A DNA stretch of 13,590 nucleotides from contig JAQUDY010000014.1 in the NCBI GenBank assembly GCA_028685445.1, forward strand, positions 1 through 13,590, read 5' to 3'. The translations under genes were made by a program, and so were the position numbers. Numbering within the stretch: position 1 is the first letter of the stretch; each line of letters starts with the position of its first letter. The notes below the pieces were generated by a model. The model did not search any database, was not told where the DNA came from, and saw nothing but the letters and a program-made list of their open reading frames with translations. Shown in pieces: positions 4,705-10,334 of the stretch. The DNA comes from Bacilli bacterium (GTDB lineage Bacteria; Bacillota_I; Bacilli_A; RF39; UBA660).

Positions 4705-6367
4705 ATTTAGCTTCCATAATAACAGGCATAATAATTGGTCTTCTTCCAGTCAAATTATTTATAAATGGATTTAACTCTAAAATAACTTGATTTTTCAAAT
4801 CTAAATAGTTATAAGAAGTTTTAATTGTATTGTTGACAATCTCTGAAACTTTAGATTCAAGTTGATTAATTAATTTAACATTTTCATTAATTAAGACAAA
4901 ACCTCTAGTTGTGATATTAGGTTTAATTAATAGCTCTCTAGTTTTAGGATTTATATTAATAATTGCAACTAAAATTCCATCCTTACTCATTAATTTTCTG
5001 TCTTTAACAACTACTGATCCAATATCACCAATTCGTGATCCATCTACATAAACATCTCCAGCTTGAATTCTTTTACCTAATCGAGCGCCTTGTTTTGTAA
5101 GTTCTACTGAATCGCCATTTTTACAGATGAAAATATTTTCTTTAGGAATATCACAAACACTTGCAAGATCTCCATGAGCTTTTAACATTCTATATTCACC
5201 ATGAACAGGCATAAAATATTCAGGTTTAATTAATCTTAACATCCATTTTAACTCTTCTTGGTTTGCATGTCCAGAAGTATGAATGTCTGATAATTCTGTA
5301 TTAGTAAAGACTCTAACTCCTTTTAAATATAGCTTATTAATAATTCGATTAATGCTTGCTTTATTACCAGGAATTGGACTTGAAGAGAACACGACGATGT
5401 CGTCGGGTAATAATTCAATTTGTCTATGATTTCCATTAGCGATTCTAGATAATGCAGCTAAGGGTTCACCTTGAGAACCGGTACATAAAATACATATTTC
5501 ATGCTTTTTATATTTTTTGGCTTCATTTGGCTCTATGAAAATTGTTTTATCAGTTATCAGATTGTTTTTTAAAGCTATTTCTTTTGCTGTTTCCATACTT
5601 CGACCAAAGGTTATAATTTTTCTATTATTTTTACGACATGTTTCAATAATATGTTTAATTCTATAAATATTAGATGCAAATGTAGCAAGAATAATTCTAG
5701 AATTACTTCTTGCAAAAACTTCACCTAAAGCTTCATCTACATTACTTTCACTTTGTGAAGAACCCGGTGTTAAAGCATTGGTACTATCTGATAATAATAA
5801 TTTGACTCCATCTTCACCTAATTTAGCTAGTTTATGTAAATTTGCCATAGGCCCAATAGGGGTTAAATCAAATTTAAAATCTCCAGTATTAAATATAATT
5901 CCGTTTGGAGTTCTAACTACAACACCATAACTATCTGGAATAGAGTGAGTTGTTGCCACAAAATCCACCGTCATATATTTAAATTTAAAAATACTTTCTC
6001 CATTGTACATTTCAATGTTCTTATAACCAACATTACGATCCTTTAGTTTGTTTTTAATTAAATCAACAGCAATTCCAGGCGCGTAAATAATTGGAATATG
6101 AATATGTTGTAATAAAAACGATATTCCTCCAATGTGGTCCTCATGACCATGGGTTATAAATAAAGCTTTAATATTTCGCTCATTATTTTTTAGATATGTC
6201 ACATCTTGAATCACATAATCGATCCCTAAAAGATCTGACTCTGGGAGTAACATCCCAGCATCCATTATGATAATCTCGTTATCATGCTCAACGACGTACA
6301 TGTTTTTGCCGACTTCTCCTAAGCCACCAAGTGCATAAACAGTAGTCACTTTTTCATTATTTTTCAT
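4703..6367 (-). CDS. rnj: Ribonuclease J
   Basis: 554 residues, the normal length for bacterial RNase J, a 5'-3' exonuclease and endonuclease central to mRNA decay and rRNA maturation in Bacillota. The metallo-beta-lactamase zinc motif HGHEDHIGG lies at residues 73-81; the beta-CASP domain follows with SDSTNA, LATFASN and the conserved SGHANQEEL and PVHGEYRML segments in the middle third; a C-terminal domain ends in PIIMPVI. The ATG at 6367 has a perfect AGGAGG (6371-6376) at the right distance. The gene converges on the ZIP gene with 7 bases between stop codons. It is transcribed away from spoIIAA, sharing the intergenic region. Only one copy is seen here; whether it is J1 or J2 cannot be decided. 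Confidence 0.95.
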   Translation of the reverse strand: MKNNEKVTTVYALGGLGEVGKNMYVVEHDNEIIIMDAGMLLPESDLLGIDYVIQDVTYLKNNERNIKALFITHGHEDHIGGISFLLQHIHIPIIYAPGIAVDLIKNKLKDRNVGYKNIEMYNGESIFKFKYMTVDFVATTHSIPDSYGVVVRTPNGIIFNTGDFKFDLTPIGPMANLHKLAKLGEDGVKLLLSDSTNALTPGSSQSESNVDEALGEVFARSNSRIILATFASNIYRIKHIIETCRKNNRKIITFGRSMETAKEIALKNNLITDKTIFIEPNEAKKYKKHEICILCTGSQGEPLAALSRIANGNHRQIELLPDDIVVFSSSPIPGNKASINRIINKLYLKGVRVFTNTELSDIHTSGHANQEELKWMLRLIKPEYFMPVHGEYRMLKAHGDLASVCDIPKENIFICKNGDSVELTKQGARLGKRIQAGDVYVDGSRIGDIGSVVVKDRKLMSKDGILVAIININPKTRELLIKPNITTRGFVLINENVKLINQLESKVSEIVNNTIKTSYNYLDLKNQVILELNPFINNLTGRRPIIMPVIMEAK

Positions 6368-6377
6368 TTTTCCTCCT

Positions 6378-6398
6378 AAAAAGACGTTAAGTCTTTTT
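6378..6398 (-). promoter_or_regulatory. Leader hairpin directly before the RNase J ribosome site
   Basis: On the minus strand AAAAAGAC pairs with GTCTTTTT around the loop TTAAC, ending one base before the AGGAGG of rnj. It could protect the transcript, control ribosome access or serve as a feedback target for RNase J. On the plus strand the same sequence would resemble a weak terminator, but no plus-strand transcript is expected here. Confidence 0.45.
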
Positions 6399-6517
6399 TT
6401 AATTCCTTTAACTTTAATTTAAAAAATATATTTTAACGCAAAATAATTTATAATAAATAATTTAATTTATAAGTATTTTCATAAAAAAATAAAATTTAAA
6501 GTTTTCTTGGTATTTGT

Positions 6518-6546
6518 ATTATATTATATTTTACTAAATTTGTCTA
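6518..6546 (-). promoter_or_regulatory. Sigma-A-type promoter for RNase J
   Basis: Read on the minus strand: TAGACA (6546-6541) as -35, 17 bases, then a perfect TATAAT (6523-6518) as -10. This predicts a transcript start near 6511 and a leader of about 145 bases. A second TATAAT overlaps at 6528-6523 but is badly spaced. Confidence 0.65.
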
Positions 6547-6658
6547 GTATCTCTAAAGTTCGATTGTCTAAAAAGGAATTTATAAACAAATAAGTAACTA
6601 ATAATTATGAGAAGTTTATCATAGTTGACACTTATAGATTAACAAAGAAAAAGATGTT

Positions 6659-6666
6659 TTGTCGAA
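6659..6666 (+). promoter_or_regulatory. Candidate Spo0A box upstream of spoIIAA
   Basis: TTGTCGAA contains the exact Spo0A core TGTCGAA. In Bacillus subtilis phosphorylated Spo0A activates the spoIIA promoter together with sigma-H, so the site is where it would be expected, 52 bases before the start codon. Weaker versions, TTGTCTAA (6564-6571) and TTGTCTAG (6540-6547), lie upstream in the same orientation. A 7-base match can occur by chance, but less readily in DNA this poor in G and C. Confidence 0.5.
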
Positions 6667-6718
6667 TGTGTTTAAAATAGAATGGCAGTACCCTATATTA
6701 AAAGAAAGGCGGGGAAAT

Positions 6719-7036
6719 ATGCTTAAAATCAATTTAGAGTTTAGAAAAGGAGTCTTATTTATAAGACTTAAAGGTGAGCTAACAAAAAGCACAGTTAATA
6801 GCTTAAATAAATATTTAATACCGGTCATAATAAAACATGGGATAAAATATATAGTATATAATTTGGGGGCGATTAAAGTTATTGATGATTTTGGAAAAAA
6901 ATCACTACAAAAAGGAATTGAGGCTGCCAGATTAAATCATGGAGAAGGTCTAATATGTAATACAAGTTTAGTTATTAATAATAATATCCAAACAGTTGAA
7001 AATGAACTAATAGCATTATCATTAATCGAAATTTAG
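6719..7036 (+). CDS. spoIIAA: Anti-sigma-F factor antagonist-like STAS protein, phospho-Ser replaced by Asp
   Basis: 105 residues from the ATG at 6719, which has AAAGGCGGGG before it and begins where family similarity begins. It is a single STAS domain: EFRKGVLFIRLKGEL (7-21) and YIVYNLGAIKVIDDFG (44-59) line up with SpoIIAA. In the family the latter reads D-S-S-G, and the first Ser (Ser58 in Bacillus subtilis) is phosphorylated by SpoIIAB and dephosphorylated by SpoIIE. Here it is D56-D57-F58-G59, so Asp57 sits at the phosphorylation site and the next Ser is Phe. The protein cannot be switched in the usual way and may mimic the phosphorylated form. The sigma factor gene follows at once with no spoIIAB between. 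SpoIIAA identity rests on fold plus context; sequence identity is modest. Confidence 0.75.
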   Translation: MLKINLEFRKGVLFIRLKGELTKSTVNSLNKYLIPVIIKHGIKYIVYNLGAIKVIDDFGKKSLQKGIEAARLNHGEGLICNTSLVINNNIQTVENELIALSLIEI

Positions 7037-7045
7037 GTGAGAAAC

Positions 7046-7696
7046 ATGAAAGAAGAAGAATTAATAAATAAATATGAAATGTTTATTTATAAAATGGCTA
7101 AAAAGTTTTATAATGTTGAGCTAGCAGATTTATATCAAGCTGGCTGTATTGGTTTAATAAAAGCTAGTCGTAAATTTGATGAAACCCTTGGTGTAAATTT
7201 TATGACATTTGCTTATAAATATGTTTTTGGAGAAATGTATGAACTTACAAATAAAAGTAGAGATATTAAAATTAATAAATACTATTTAAAAATCTTAAAA
7301 GAAATAGAAATAACAAAGAATGAACTAATTCAAAAGTTAAATAAAATACCTTCCTTAACAGAAATTTGTTTATATGCTGAGTTAGATGAGACTTTGGTAA
7401 GTGAAGTAATGTTGTTAACAGGTTCAATGTTAAGTTTAGATGATGAATACCAAACATTAAATGGAGATGTAAAAATTGCTGACTTAATTGGAACTAATCA
7501 GAATATAGATGATCAAATATTAATTAATGATTCTTTAGAAACTTTAGAACCATTAGAACAATCTATTATGGATTATAGATACTTTAAAGATTTAAGCCAA
7601 ATGGAAACTGCAAATATTTTAGGAATAAGCCAAGTTAAAGTTTCACGTTTAGAATCAAAAAGCAAAAAAAAATTAAAAGAGTATATTAGAGCTTAA
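7046..7696 (+). CDS. sigF: Sporulation sigma factor, sigma-F type
   Basis: 216 residues from the ATG at 7046, chosen over a GTG at 7037 because AGGTGA (7035-7040) is well placed for it. Region 2.2 is clear (DLYQAGCIGLIKASRKFD, from residue 29), followed by FMTFAYKYVFGEM (region 2.3), KNELIQKLNKIPSLTEI (region 3) and a strong region 4.2 with LSQMETANILGISQVKVSRLE, nearly the sigma-F sequence. Compared with Bacillus subtilis sigma-F (255 residues) about 33 N-terminal residues are missing, and region 2.3-2.4 is altered (TNKSRDIKINKYY where RDDGTVKVSRS is usual). Sigma-G is the main alternative, but the position between spoIIAA and spoVA genes supports sigma-F. In other spore formers it drives early forespore genes and is held inactive by SpoIIAB, which is not encoded in this operon. 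Confidence 0.85.
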   Translation: MKEEELINKYEMFIYKMAKKFYNVELADLYQAGCIGLIKASRKFDETLGVNFMTFAYKYVFGEMYELTNKSRDIKINKYYLKILKEIEITKNELIQKLNKIPSLTEICLYAELDETLVSEVMLLTGSMLSLDDEYQTLNGDVKIADLIGTNQNIDDQILINDSLETLEPLEQSIMDYRYFKDLSQMETANILGISQVKVSRLESKSKKKLKEYIRA

Positions 7697-7710
7697 AAGT
7701 GTTCATAATA
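7681..7710 (+). promoter_or_regulatory. Sigma-G/F-like promoter for spoVAC-AD-AE
   Basis: GTATA (7681-7685, inside the last codons of sigF) and CATAATA (7704-7710) are separated by 18 bases. Both match the sigma-G consensus (gHATr and CATnnTA) fully. spoVA is sigma-G-dependent in Bacillus subtilis. The predicted start falls only about 10 bases before the GTG of spoVAC, on the AGGTGA ribosome site, which makes the leader unusually short. Read-through from spoIIAA-sigF would also supply transcript. Confidence 0.55.
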
Positions 7711-7727
7711 AAACTAGGTGAATAGTA

Positions 7728-8165
7728 GTGAATAAAAAAGAATACTTAGAATTAGTTAAAAAATTGACTCCAAAAGAAGAAAAATTAAAAAACACCTTTT
7801 TGGCTTTTTTAATGGGAGGAACATTAGGTTTTATAGCAGAAGCTATAAAACTTTTATTAGTTTACAAAATATGTATTACGACAAAAGAAGCAACAACTTG
7901 GGTATTAATAATATTTATATTTTTAGCAAGTCTTTTTACTGGCTTAGGTTTTTTTGATAAATTAGTTATGAAATTTAAAGCAGGTTTAATAGTACCAATT
8001 ACAGGATTTGCTCATTCTGTAACTAGTAGTGCTCTTGATTATAAAGAAGATGGTTTAATTACTGGCTTAGGTGGGTATCTGTTTCGACTTGCTGGTTGTG
8101 TTTTGTTATATGGAATAATAGCAGCATTTTTTCTAGCTATTTTAAAGGTGATTATTTATGTTTGA
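7728..8165 (+). CDS. spoVAC: Stage V sporulation protein AC, DPA channel subunit
   Basis: 145 residues, the usual length, starting with GTG at 7728 behind AGGTGA (7716-7721); an in-frame TGA at 7719 excludes a longer start. Family sequence is clear: KKLTPKEEKLKN near the N-terminus, FLMGGTLGFIAEA as the first helix, TGLGFFDKL in the middle, and GFAHSVTSSALDYKEDGLITGLGG before the last helix. SpoVAC is a membrane protein of the spore inner membrane that behaves as a mechanosensitive channel and takes part in moving calcium-dipicolinic acid into the forespore and out during germination. It overlaps spoVAD by 8 bases, so the two are coupled. Confidence 0.95.
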   Translation: MNKKEYLELVKKLTPKEEKLKNTFLAFLMGGTLGFIAEAIKLLLVYKICITTKEATTWVLIIFIFLASLFTGLGFFDKLVMKFKAGLIVPITGFAHSVTSSALDYKEDGLITGLGGYLFRLAGCVLLYGIIAAFFLAILKVIIYV

Positions 8166-9105
8166 GTTTAAAGATATTTATTTAAATGAATATTTTACAA
8201 TTGCAGGACCTTTAGAAAAAGAGTATGGAGTTAAAAATTGTGATATATATTTAGATGATTACTATTTTGGAGAAAAAAGTACAGAAAATGCTGAGATAAA
8301 AATGCAAAGAACCGTGCTTAATAATTTAATAACAAGTAATACAGAATTAATAATAGGTGGGGATTTAACAAATCAACCCACTGCGTTTGGATCAGCATCT
8401 TTAGGAAGAAAAATACCTTCTATAGGATTATACTCAGCATGTGCTACAACAATATCATCTATTTTAACACTTTCATCATTTATAATAAATAAAACAATTA
8501 AAGAAGGTGTATTTGTTACGAGCTCACATAATTTAGCAGCAGAAAAGCAATTTAGATTCCCTGTTGAATACGGAGCACCAAAACCGATAAGAAGTACGTT
8601 TACTGCTACAGCAGCAGTAGGAATTAAAATATCAAATAAGCCATCAAACATTAAAATAAAAGGTGGAACATTAGGTAAAGTAGTTGATTCCTTCGTTAAA
8701 GATGCTCATAATATGGGAGCAGTAATGGCTAAAGGCGCTGCTGAAACTTTCATCGATTATTTATCACAAACTAATACGACTATTAAAGATTATGATTTAA
8801 TATTAACTGGAGATTTAGGAAAAGTTGGAGCAGATATATTTAAAGAAATTCTAAAAATAGAACATAACATCAAAGTAAATAATCATATCGATGCTGGTGC
8901 GGTTTTTTATAAAAATCTTGAATATTCTGGAGCGAGTGGAACTGCAGCTCAAGCTCTATTATTAGTAACAAAATTCATTCATATCAAAAAATATAAAAAA
9001 ATATTATGTTTAGGGACAGGATCTTTGCATAGTCCGCTTTTAGTAAATCAAAAAAATACCATTCCAACAGTAACTCATGCTTTATATTTGGAGGTGGAAA
9101 AATGA
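8158..9105 (+). CDS. spoVAD: Stage V sporulation protein AD, DPA-binding thiolase-fold protein
   Basis: 315 residues, about 20 shorter than usual, mainly at the N-terminus. The thiolase-like fold is recognisable: GGDLTNQ near residue 68, GLYSACATT with Cys95 at the ancestral catalytic position, and TSSHNLAAEKQFRFPVEYG, a signature of SpoVAD, followed by STFTATAAVG. The C-terminal GASGTAAQALLL and CLGTGSLHSPLLVNQ segments complete it. SpoVAD binds dipicolinic acid on the spore inner membrane and is needed for its uptake. The ATG at 8158 has AAAGGTGAT in front, inside spoVAC; the gene overlaps spoVAE by 4 bases (ATGA). Confidence 0.95.
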   Translation: MFEFKDIYLNEYFTIAGPLEKEYGVKNCDIYLDDYYFGEKSTENAEIKMQRTVLNNLITSNTELIIGGDLTNQPTAFGSASLGRKIPSIGLYSACATTISSILTLSSFIINKTIKEGVFVTSSHNLAAEKQFRFPVEYGAPKPIRSTFTATAAVGIKISNKPSNIKIKGGTLGKVVDSFVKDAHNMGAVMAKGAAETFIDYLSQTNTTIKDYDLILTGDLGKVGADIFKEILKIEHNIKVNNHIDAGAVFYKNLEYSGASGTAAQALLLVTKFIHIKKYKKILCLGTGSLHSPLLVNQKNTIPTVTHALYLEVEK

Positions 9106-9452
9106 CTTTAGTTTATTCATTTCTGTTTTGTGGATTAGTCTGTTTATTAGGACAAATACTTTTAGATAATACAACTTTAACCCCAGGACATATTACATCG
9201 ATTTTTGTAGTAATAGGAGCATTTTTAGGAGTTTTTAATCTTTATGATAAAATAGTTTACTTAATAGGAGCAGGAGCAAATATTCCAATAGTATCTTTTG
9301 GTAATTTATTACTTGAAGGAGCATATCAAGGATATATTCATCAAGGATTAATCGGATTATTTAGTGGTATGCTCCAAACAGTAAGTGCTGGTGTAGTCTC
9401 AACAATAGTGTTTTCGTTTATTGTTACATTATTCTTTAAAGCAAAAGATTAA
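9102..9452 (+). CDS. spoVAE: Stage V sporulation protein AE (AEB-type), DPA channel subunit
   Basis: 116 residues of small, very hydrophobic protein with about four membrane helices. The sequence LDNTTLTPGHITSIFVVIGAFLG and later GANIPIVSFGNLLLEGA is characteristic of SpoVAE/AEB. It works with SpoVAC and SpoVAD in the calcium-dipicolinate channel of the inner spore membrane. The ribosome site GGAGGTGG lies within the end of spoVAD and the start overlaps that gene's stop. It is the last gene of the operon: a terminator spans its stop and no spoVAEA or spoVAF follows on this strand. Confidence 0.95.
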   Translation: MTLVYSFLFCGLVCLLGQILLDNTTLTPGHITSIFVVIGAFLGVFNLYDKIVYLIGAGANIPIVSFGNLLLEGAYQGYIHQGLIGLFSGMLQTVSAGVVSTIVFSFIVTLFFKAKD

Positions 9453-9469
9453 ATTTTTAATCTTTTTTT
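9443..9469. terminator. Shared terminator between converging spoVAE and gerB
   Basis: AAAAGATTAAA (9443-9453) is perfectly complementary to TTTAATCTTTT (9456-9466); T residues continue to 9469. The TAA stop of spoVAE is in the left arm and the stop of the minus-strand gerB gene overlaps the right end. Because the arms begin and end in A and T runs, it can serve both strands, better on the plus strand. Confidence 0.75.
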
Positions 9470-10334
9470 AATATATTCCTACAAATAAAATATTGAATTT
9501 CGTGATAAAGATTGTATAAAGAATAAAAATTGTAAATAATAAAATTAAAAGAGTCTTTTTACTTAAATTATTGCTAGTAATTCCTAAAAGTATAAAACAT
9601 TCGAAAATCCAACTAATGAAAAGAAAATTTTGAACATTTTCAAAAATGTTTAAAATTGAGATCTTTTTAAAAATTATATATTCAGGATATTTATAAATAG
9701 ATGCTACAGGTATTCCTAAAATACCAACTATTAATGTAAATAATATTAGAGTATATATAGAAGAAAATAAATAAGCTTTATAATTATAGTTTTCTTTAAA
9801 ATTAGGAAGTGTTAAATAAGGAAGTGTTGATAATAAGGCAAAGTATACTGAAGAATTTATTATTTTGAGTACAGAAAATTTAGTAATAAGTTCAAAATTT
9901 TGATAATTTATCTGAGATAACAAAGAAAAAGTCATTATAAAGAATAAAGTGATATTGATAATAAAAAAGATATTAGCAATTTTAAAAATAGTATCTTTAT
10001 TTTTATTTCTCGAATAAATTACTACTAATAAAAGAGCAGCCAAAATTATAAACTTCGGAGTTTTATTTAAATATAATGTAGATATAGCGCTTGTTAAAGT
10101 ATAAAAGACATAAACTAAAAGAATTATACTAATTACAATTTTAAGAGCTTTGAATCTCGATAAAAACTTTGAACACTCATTTATTATTAAACCTAAAAAG
10201 ATTCCTAGAATGATGCTTATCCAAAAAAAAGATCCAATCTGATTTATTATTTGATAAATACCAAAACCTAAAAACAATGGTCTAGCTAATAAAAATAGAG
10301 TACTGTTATATTCATAATTATTAATTTTTTTCAT
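9468..10334 (-). CDS. gerKB: Spore germination receptor B subunit (GerAB/GerKB family permease)
   Basis: 288 residues with about nine hydrophobic helices, related to the GerAB branch of the APC amino-acid transporter superfamily. Known B subunits have about 365 residues and ten helices, so this one is distinctly short; loops and perhaps one helix are reduced, but the frame is intact. Segments like YPEYIIFKKISILNIFENVQNFLFISWIF (near residue 215) resemble the YP...RxI...ERIE...W pattern of the family. B subunits bind the germinant in the spore inner membrane. The ATG overlaps the gerC stop by one base (TAATG) with GGAGGT (10341-10346) ahead of it. Family call is by context, topology and the YP motif; the symbol follows the A-C-B gene order of gerK. 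Confidence 0.75.
   Translation of the reverse strand: MKKINNYEYNSTLFLLARPLFLGFGIYQIINQIGSFFWISIILGIFLGLIINECSKFLSRFKALKIVISIILLVYVFYTLTSAISTLYLNKTPKFIILAALLLVVIYSRNKNKDTIFKIANIFFIINITLFFIMTFSLLSQINYQNFELITKFSVLKIINSSVYFALLSTLPYLTLPNFKENYNYKAYLFSSIYTLILFTLIVGILGIPVASIYKYPEYIIFKKISILNIFENVQNFLFISWIFECFILLGITSNNLSKKTLLILLFTIFILYTIFITKFNILFVGIY

Follow-up and report, generated by a model that had tools for sequence, protein, structure and literature searches.

A retained SpoIIAA-like protein without phosphosite directly precedes sigF in a bacterial family in which neither SpoIIAB nor SpoIIE was found

How is sigma-F held in check where the spoIIA operon runs from spoIIAA straight into sigF? The switch formed by SpoIIAA, SpoIIAB and SpoIIE is the textbook case of telling two sister cells apart. 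The question is raised by a stretch of DNA of 13,590 nucleotides (the window). It is one of the 126 contigs, C16, in a draft genome of 917 kb with a completeness of 87.87%. A sequence-only reading of the window had claimed that spoIIAB is missing from the operon. This claim holds in the window: the spoIIAA stop and the sigF start are 9 bases apart, and no kinase gene lies in between (Table 1).

Table 1. Positions of the features discussed, in the window unless a locus is given.
Feature	Position	Strand	Basis or remark
TGTCGAA, presumed Spo0A box, within TTTTGTCGAA	6660..6666	+	59 bases ahead of the spoIIAA-like start
TATATT, putative -10-like element	6694..6699	+	conserved; starts 34 bases downstream of the box start
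spoIIAA-like gene, 105 aa, one STAS domain	6719..7036	+	ATG at 6719, stop TAG 7034-7036; STAS 35.6 bits (Pfam, over cut-off)
Codons 7-16 of spoIIAA-like, beta1-beta2 hairpin	6737..6766	+	family-fixed E7, K/R10, G11, I/V12, F14, R16
Codon 57 (Asp) of spoIIAA-like, equivalent of B. subtilis SpoIIAA Ser58	6887..6889	+	alignment
AGGTGAG, likely ribosome-binding site of sigF; overlaps the stop of spoIIAA	7035..7041	+	sequence reading
sigF, 216 aa	7046..7696	+	ATG at 7046; Sigma70 regions 2 and 4 over cut-off
Codon 116 (Thr) of sigF, most relaxed sigF position	7391..7393	+	family versus canonical counts
spoVAC	7728..8165	+	PF03862 91.4 bits; TIGR02838 137 bits
spoVAD	8158..9105	+	PF07451 256 bits
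spoVAE	9102..9452	+	PF03862 87.6 bits; TIGR02839 116 bits
Rsb-type modules in three family genomes	L359 680-2681; L360 991-2850; L361 1086-3280		away from sigF

The sigma factor is assigned to SigF because of its position and its best match. It lies behind spoIIAA and before spoVAC-spoVAD-spoVAE, and a separate sigG is present in the genome. Among the NCBIfam models the SigB/SigF/SigG subfamily ranks first (142 bits), and spore_sigF (TIGR02885) with 125 bits stands ahead of SigB (102), SigG (92 and 82) and SigE (42); all of these scores are below the curated cut-offs, which for TIGR02885 is 321.45, and Sigma70 region 3 is below the Pfam cut-off as well. The protein is far more diverged than the SigG of the same genome, which scores 327.5 bits against a cut-off of 372 (L094:4383-5210). 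The genome also has a SpoIIGA match over the Pfam cut-off (159.5 bits), a gene of SigE type that scores 308.8 bits against a cut-off of 339 and, at a contig edge, part of a SigK-type gene whose 263 bits exceed the 252 required for the subfamily. A NUDIX gene (L094 3672-4154) separates the SigE from the SigG gene; in L096 and L098 the two are neighbours. On the strand opposite to the spoVA genes the window carries gerC-like, weak gerB-like and gerA-like genes. The gerB-like permease (9468-10334, 288 aa), which lies between the other two, reaches 19.7 bits against a germination permease cut-off of 139.55 and has no Pfam match; it is shortened or strongly diverged.

Elsewhere in the window genome no SpoIIAB was found either: PF13581 gave no match, and TIGR01925 gave one of 20.5 bits in a frame of 617 aa. 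Since the genome is incomplete, absence from this genome alone is weak evidence. The further proposal of the sequence-only reading, that sigma-F may be without its classical inhibitor, is supported by the family as a whole. The SpoIIAB model exceeds its cut-off in none of 243 family genomes from 148 genera, 171 of which have a completeness of at least 90% and a contamination of at most 5%, and, as a positive control, the class sample of 296 yields 58 genomes over the cut-off. The sole family match to this model at E<=1e-12 (G116:C42:8438-8740, 49 bits) lies in a frame of 432 aa. Among 40 relatives searched separately, TIGR01925 is over cut-off in five, and in none of the 25 that belong to the family of the window; the weak family matches there do not exceed 45 bits, and their frames are 335 aa or longer in all but three cases, which have 153 aa (near a contig end), 195 aa and 217 aa. 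Gin/CsfB as a substitute inhibitor gave one weak match in 196 genomes, with a control search that gave none in 14 named genomes including B. subtilis.

SpoIIE, for which a search had been suggested together with that for SpoIIAB, was not found in the window genome and is over cut-off in none of the 243 family genomes (best 46.6 bits). Because the outgroups miss the SpoIIE cut-off too, the comparison was made by bits, and the five outgroup genomes having SpoIIAB score between 158 and 274. Matches at E<=1e-6 occur in four family genomes, none above the best score just given. Three of these candidates (G204, G120 and G143; the fourth is G148) were rejected as Rsb-type rather than SpoIIE, since they combine a PP2C domain (PF07228) with a HATPase_c_2 kinase (PF13581), none of them near sigF. 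The kinase of G204 is a neighbouring gene of 134 aa (RsbW 38 bits, spIIAB 26 bits); in G120 and G143 both parts are fused, and the G143 module lies beside a STAS gene. The family is thus not entirely free of serine-kinase modules. Outside the family, G030, which has no SpoIIAB, shows a SpoIIE match of 51.3 bits.

In the class sample of 296 genomes, none of the 58 that pass the SpoIIAB cut-off and none of the 63 with SpoIIE at E<=1e-15 belongs to the family. A SpoIIAA match (E<=1e-10) was obtained in 78 genomes. Of these, 29 belong to the family and show neither partner. The other 49 all carry SpoIIAB, which exceeds the cut-off in 48 and is truncated in G332 (88 bits); SpoIIE reaches E<=1e-15 in 47 of the 49, the exceptions being G314 and G503. 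Co-occurrence is imperfect. In a visual comparison of the two lists, 10 of 59 class genomes with a SpoIIAB match do not reach E<=1e-10 for SpoIIAA. Six genomes (G303, G426, G468, G474, G480 and G493) have a SpoIIE match without SpoIIAB. Judged without a species tree, this class-wide pattern fits a single event at the base of the family, in which, as we infer, SpoIIAB and SpoIIE were lost together.

An assembly error at position 7036 was a conceivable cause of the missing gene, and a comparison with related loci had been proposed with the original observation. A total of 228 loci was compared, comprising 8 outgroup loci with spoIIAB and 220 family loci, 182 of which are distinct by their SpoIIAA sequence. 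The suspicion of an error was not borne out, because the same junction recurs in 179 of the 182 distinct loci. Measured from the spoIIAA stop, the longest sigF frame begins there at -41 to +101 bases. The gap is between -41 and +16 bases in 172 of the 179, with a 4-base overlap in 26; spoIIAA-like is probably translationally coupled to sigF, as this spacing suggests. The spoIIAB profile matched none of the 220 family loci; the outgroup loci L019, L020 and L022 have the order spoIIAA-spoIIAB-sigF. Of the remaining three loci, L177 ends at a contig edge, and in L008 and L152 the gene behind spoIIAA is metK. L144 (6348-7827) contains the spoIIAA of L008 in a longer stretch, and there sigF lies behind metK. 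The metK gene, coding for S-adenosylmethionine synthetase, follows the spoIIAA-like gene also in L190. Named public MAG contigs are among the loci, with labels such as Bacilli, Mollicutes, Erysipelotrichaceae and Tenericutes. As to sampling, 80 loci were fetched by a pattern covering the hairpin described below, and 120 are the higher-scoring places of the SpoIIAA-like search in the 243 genomes. Conservation was recounted on the 112 of the 182 loci that were not fetched by pattern, for which a bias towards better-scoring proteins remains.

The SpoIIAA-like protein was found in 23 of the 40 relatives, directly before sigF in the family loci, and was detected in 177 of the 243 family genomes (117 of 148 genera), including 127 of the 171 good ones. 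Some of the 66 family genomes in which it was not detected have probably lost sporulation; one of them, G012, has only two sigma-70 region-2 matches in all. In G015 (L352 1711-2503), sigF-spoVAC-spoVAD-spoVAE occurs without spoIIAA, and the distance from the upstream frame to sigF is 129 bases.

The gene upstream of spoIIAA was considered as a new partner and rejected, since no neighbour is constant among 91 loci. A secreted-looking family supplies the upstream frame in 29 loci and an LCP-like one in 13, seven have RNase J, which is encoded on the other strand, and others fall into small groups and singletons; seven loci have no such frame. The names secreted-looking and LCP-like are our own reading of the sequences. 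The genes of the secreted-looking family have the same orientation as spoIIAA and precede it by 28-100 bases (e.g. L113-L118, L134, L135, L137, L138 and L140). The window has neither this nor the LCP-like protein at the corresponding place. In L100 (G008, 6005-7991), the second and third genes behind sigF encode two collagen-like Gly-X-Thr repeat proteins, which are possibly surface filaments of spores.

The 300 bases upstream of the operon contain the motif TGTCGAA, which we take to be the Spo0A box, on one strand or the other in 166 of 182 loci, compared with a mean of 3.9 and a maximum of 8 in 30 dinucleotide shuffles. It begins 57-61 bases ahead of the start codon in 121 of 161 aligned loci and is present in 102 of the 112 loci not fetched by pattern. 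Of the canonical relatives, 30 have upstream sequence of sufficient length, and 15 of these show the exact box; the stretch used for this count was slightly different. The -10-like element is conserved in the aligned loci as T (93%), A (93%), T (52%) or A (43%), A (88%), T (72%) and T (90%). The family operon thus carries the upstream box of a Spo0A-controlled spoIIA operon. Since this box is kept, sigma-F is probably made before septation, provided that Spo0A acts as in B. subtilis. At this stage sigma-F is held by SpoIIAB in the model system, according to a passage in PMC3416734.

Position 57 of the SpoIIAA-like protein corresponds to Ser58, named as the phosphosite of SpoIIAA in PMC11418112. 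It is Ser in 44 of 44 canonical SpoIIAA proteins from eight families of the class (44 of 49 class genomes, leaving out G290, G306, G320, G414 and G499) and in all listed database relatives of the SpoIIAA of L020 (120 of the 164 found), versus 19 of 182 in the family, where Glu (29), Ile (23) and Asn (20) are more frequent and Met, Leu, Asp, Lys and others occur as well. Ser or Thr is found in 23 of the 182, six of which also have Ser or Thr at position 58; a count over 100 loci gives 13 Ser and 1 Thr. In the window the motif D-D-F-G stands in place of D-S-S-G, so that the phosphorylatable Ser of SpoIIAA is missing. The neighbouring Asp56 (172 of 182) and Gly59 (163 of 182) are kept, and parsimony on a tree of 177 loci gives 90 changes at position 57. 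Two of the genomes with Rsb-type modules, G204 and G143, have Cys and Met, respectively.

The loss extends to the surface that contacts SpoIIAB and SpoIIE. Anti-sigma binding or phosphorylation is ascribed to the equivalents of SypA Asp20, Asp22, Phe53 and Ser57 in part of PMC10120452; the offset from SypA to SpoIIAA was derived from the phosphosites 56 and 58. Arg67 is described as important for SpoIIE, and Gln73 is discussed, in a section of PMC11418112. Residues of a helix close to the end, also mentioned in PMC10120452, were omitted because this helix is shorter here. The seven positions considered, 57, 54, 66, 20, 58, 22 and 72, correspond to Ser58, Phe55, Arg67, Glu21, Ser59, Asp23 and Gln73. 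At equal sample sizes the first five, in this order, are the most relaxed of all 105, position 22 is the ninth and position 72 the 28th; six of the seven are therefore among the nine most relaxed. With positions treated as independent, the seven differ from the rest with a Mann-Whitney p of 1.8e-7; the 112 loci obtained without the pattern give 8.4e-7. Of six contact residues, all are kept in 43 of 44 canonical proteins and five in the remaining one, whereas the 182 family proteins keep none (89), one (77), two (11), three (4) or four (1). The SpoIIAA equivalog TIGR02886 gives 24.5 bits in the window against a cut-off of 114.75, and neither the cognate kinase nor the phosphatase was found in the 87.87% complete genome. 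Judged by these residues, the SpoIIAA-like protein is no longer a partner-switch protein, since both the phosphosite and the SpoIIAB/SpoIIE face are lost.

The STAS fold is nevertheless retained. An AlphaFold model of the protein (pLDDT 92.6, pTM 0.85) finds its best PDB match in SpoIIAA (1thn_B, TMq 0.90), and it is nearest to SpoIIAA chains out of SpoIIAB complexes. The fold is shared with the SpoIIAA structures 1thn, 1th8 and 1auz, from which the family protein differs by the missing Ser58 and an identity of 25-26%. The gene is not decaying: among 24 close pairs, chosen by a SigF identity of 80% or more, 22 were usable and give a median dN/dS of 0.086 for spoIIAA-like and 0.101 for sigF. 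The pairs are not all independent, and individual ones go up to 0.5; the medians are those of a protein under purifying selection. In the 112 loci not fetched by pattern, one residue is kept in 88-99% at positions 7, 11, 14, 16, 48, 75 and 96, and at positions 7 and 11 this conservation is new to the family. For the hairpin the counts are Glu7 99, Gly11 110, Phe14 104 and Arg16 107 in these 112 loci, compared with 0, 2, 16 and 32 in the 44 canonical proteins. By this comparison the fixation of the beta1-beta2 hairpin (E7, G11, F14) is a new trait of the family. Its strands comprise residues 3-9 and 12-21 in the model, and the turn would point away from the old contact loop, as judged by strand topology rather than coordinates.

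In SigF itself, position 8, presumably the equivalent of sigma-F E39, is Asn in the window and variable in the family, and no inference was drawn from it. Position 116 is the most relaxed of the 216 (+2.43; next +1.65): Glu occurs in 31 of 35 canonical proteins (those of at least 160 aa among 38) versus 41 of 179 family proteins. By comparison with the B. subtilis sequences, this position is presumably at or next to the equivalent of sigma-G E156. Its relaxation agrees with the loss of SpoIIAB as a supporting observation. The change E156K makes sigma-G refractory to SpoIIAB, as stated in part of PMC3174212. A coevolution of SpoIIAA and SigF looked suggestive at first and was dropped, since the coupling in 177 pairs does not exceed seven tree simulations of independent evolution (maximum 1.92 versus 1.39-2.04; 23 pairs above 0.9 versus 46-70), in an analysis of low power whose signal within the proteins is near null as well.

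We propose that the switch was lost and that SpoIIAA was repurposed, perhaps as a direct partner of sigma-F, which on balance we consider the probable course of events. The ancestor of the family would have lost SpoIIAB and SpoIIE together and kept the Spo0A box and the other sporulation sigma factors. SpoIIAA would then have ceased to act as a phosphorylated anti-anti-sigma factor: as the sequences show, its phosphosite and its contacts to SpoIIAB and SpoIIE drifted, while the protein remained under purifying selection and the hairpin was fixed as a new face. The STAS protein may bind sigma-F or the holoenzyme directly and restrain or stabilise it without phosphorylation; of the functions considered, such a direct action is the most likely one, at a probability that still falls short of even. 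A role of the protein, through its hairpin, as a holding factor that allows cell-specific activation of sigma-F without kinase or septal phosphatase is more tentative. We infer that sigma-F needs other means of restriction, none of which was found. Restriction to the forespore might rely on something other than a septal phosphatase, e.g. unequal inheritance or turnover of a pair of SpoIIAA-like protein and sigma-F. Against the proposal as a whole count the Rsb-type modules in at least three of the 243 family genomes, the detection of the SpoIIAA-like protein in no more than 177 of them, the sigF of G015 without spoIIAA and the coupling result.

Another anti-sigma factor could hold sigma-F instead, and the STAS protein could antagonise it through the hairpin without phosphorylation at the old site. 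The newly conserved hairpin suggests a partner, spoIIAA-like stays with sigF, expression before septation falls into the period at which SpoIIAB normally holds sigma-F (PMC3416734, in the passage cited), and a few genomes of the family encode RsbW-like kinases. We regard this explanation as rather unlikely, since the upstream frames vary among the 91 loci, the Rsb-type modules, with weak SpoIIE-profile matches, were met in three of 243 genomes, the window genome has no PF13581 match, and the module carriers G204 and G143 have no Ser at position 57. It is unlikely to a somewhat higher degree that the role of the STAS protein is separate from sigma-F, which would then be controlled only by the timing of transcription, by turnover or by competition for polymerase. 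STAS domains of many functions share this fold, and G015 has sigF without spoIIAA; the constant position directly before sigF in 179 of 182 distinct loci, often with overlapping frames, speaks against a separate role.

That SpoIIAA is a remnant, kept for the sigF promoter and for ribosome loading, would agree with the loss of most canonical contact residues, with the 66 of 243 genomes in which the protein was not detected and with the intact sigF of G015 without spoIIAA beside it. We consider it improbable in view of a median dN/dS that is not above that of sigF and of the seven positions conserved at 88-99%, two of them new to the family. An artefact, either a misassembly at 7036 or incomplete genomes that hide SpoIIAB, would be conceivable for a single genome of this completeness in 126 contigs. 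Its probability is next to negligible, because the junction is present in 179 of 182 distinct loci, including named public MAG contigs, and SpoIIAB is over cut-off in none of 243 genomes.

Compared with known systems, the family operon agrees with the spoIIA operon of B. subtilis and of L019, L020 and L022 in having spoIIAA before sigF, spoVA behind and a Spo0A box upstream. It differs in that spoIIAB and SpoIIE were not found and that the phosphosite and the contact face are lost. Rsb-type modules (RsbU phosphatase, RsbW kinase, RsbV STAS) likewise combine a STAS protein with a sigma factor of the SigB/F/G kind; however, they are unlinked to the family sigF, and the window STAS protein has no phosphosite. 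Candidatus Arthromitus, a minimal spore-former with a similarly reduced genome and sporulation sigma factors, keeps SpoIIAA, SpoIIAB and SpoIIE, unlike the family; the 2012 comparison that reports this lists the three for each of the spore-forming bacilli and clostridia it included (PMC3533761, in the part available). The small genomes, the presence of spoIIGA and the missing spoIIAB and spoIIE resemble the order RF39, to which the family presumably belongs. For this order, Field et al. 2024 (PMC10868615) report in one sentence that spoIIAB and spoIIE are reduced or absent. If the family is part of RF39, their bare absence is therefore already in print. Gene presence was assessed there by KEGG orthologues, and the available portion of the paper does not mention the altered SpoIIAA, the junction or the promoter. 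In the literature searched, this was the only statement of the absence in the portions available, and no paper there names both SpoIIAA and RF39. New is the SpoIIAA kept beside sigF, altered and, by its substitution rates, under selection.

These results have consequences for the prediction of sporulation. According to the available part of PMC12536801, spoIIAB is present in all 63 MAGs called spore-formers, on which the present finding bears, and RF39 MAGs from cattle are given 0%, which counts against our preferred explanation of a lost switch and a repurposed SpoIIAA. Among the 148 genera sampled, in which neither SpoIIAB nor SpoIIE was found, 117 keep the changed SpoIIAA. With sporulation read here from genes alone, this kept and altered SpoIIAA points to an unfamiliar way of confining sigma-F: either sigma-F is confined by simpler means in this family, or a new control exists.
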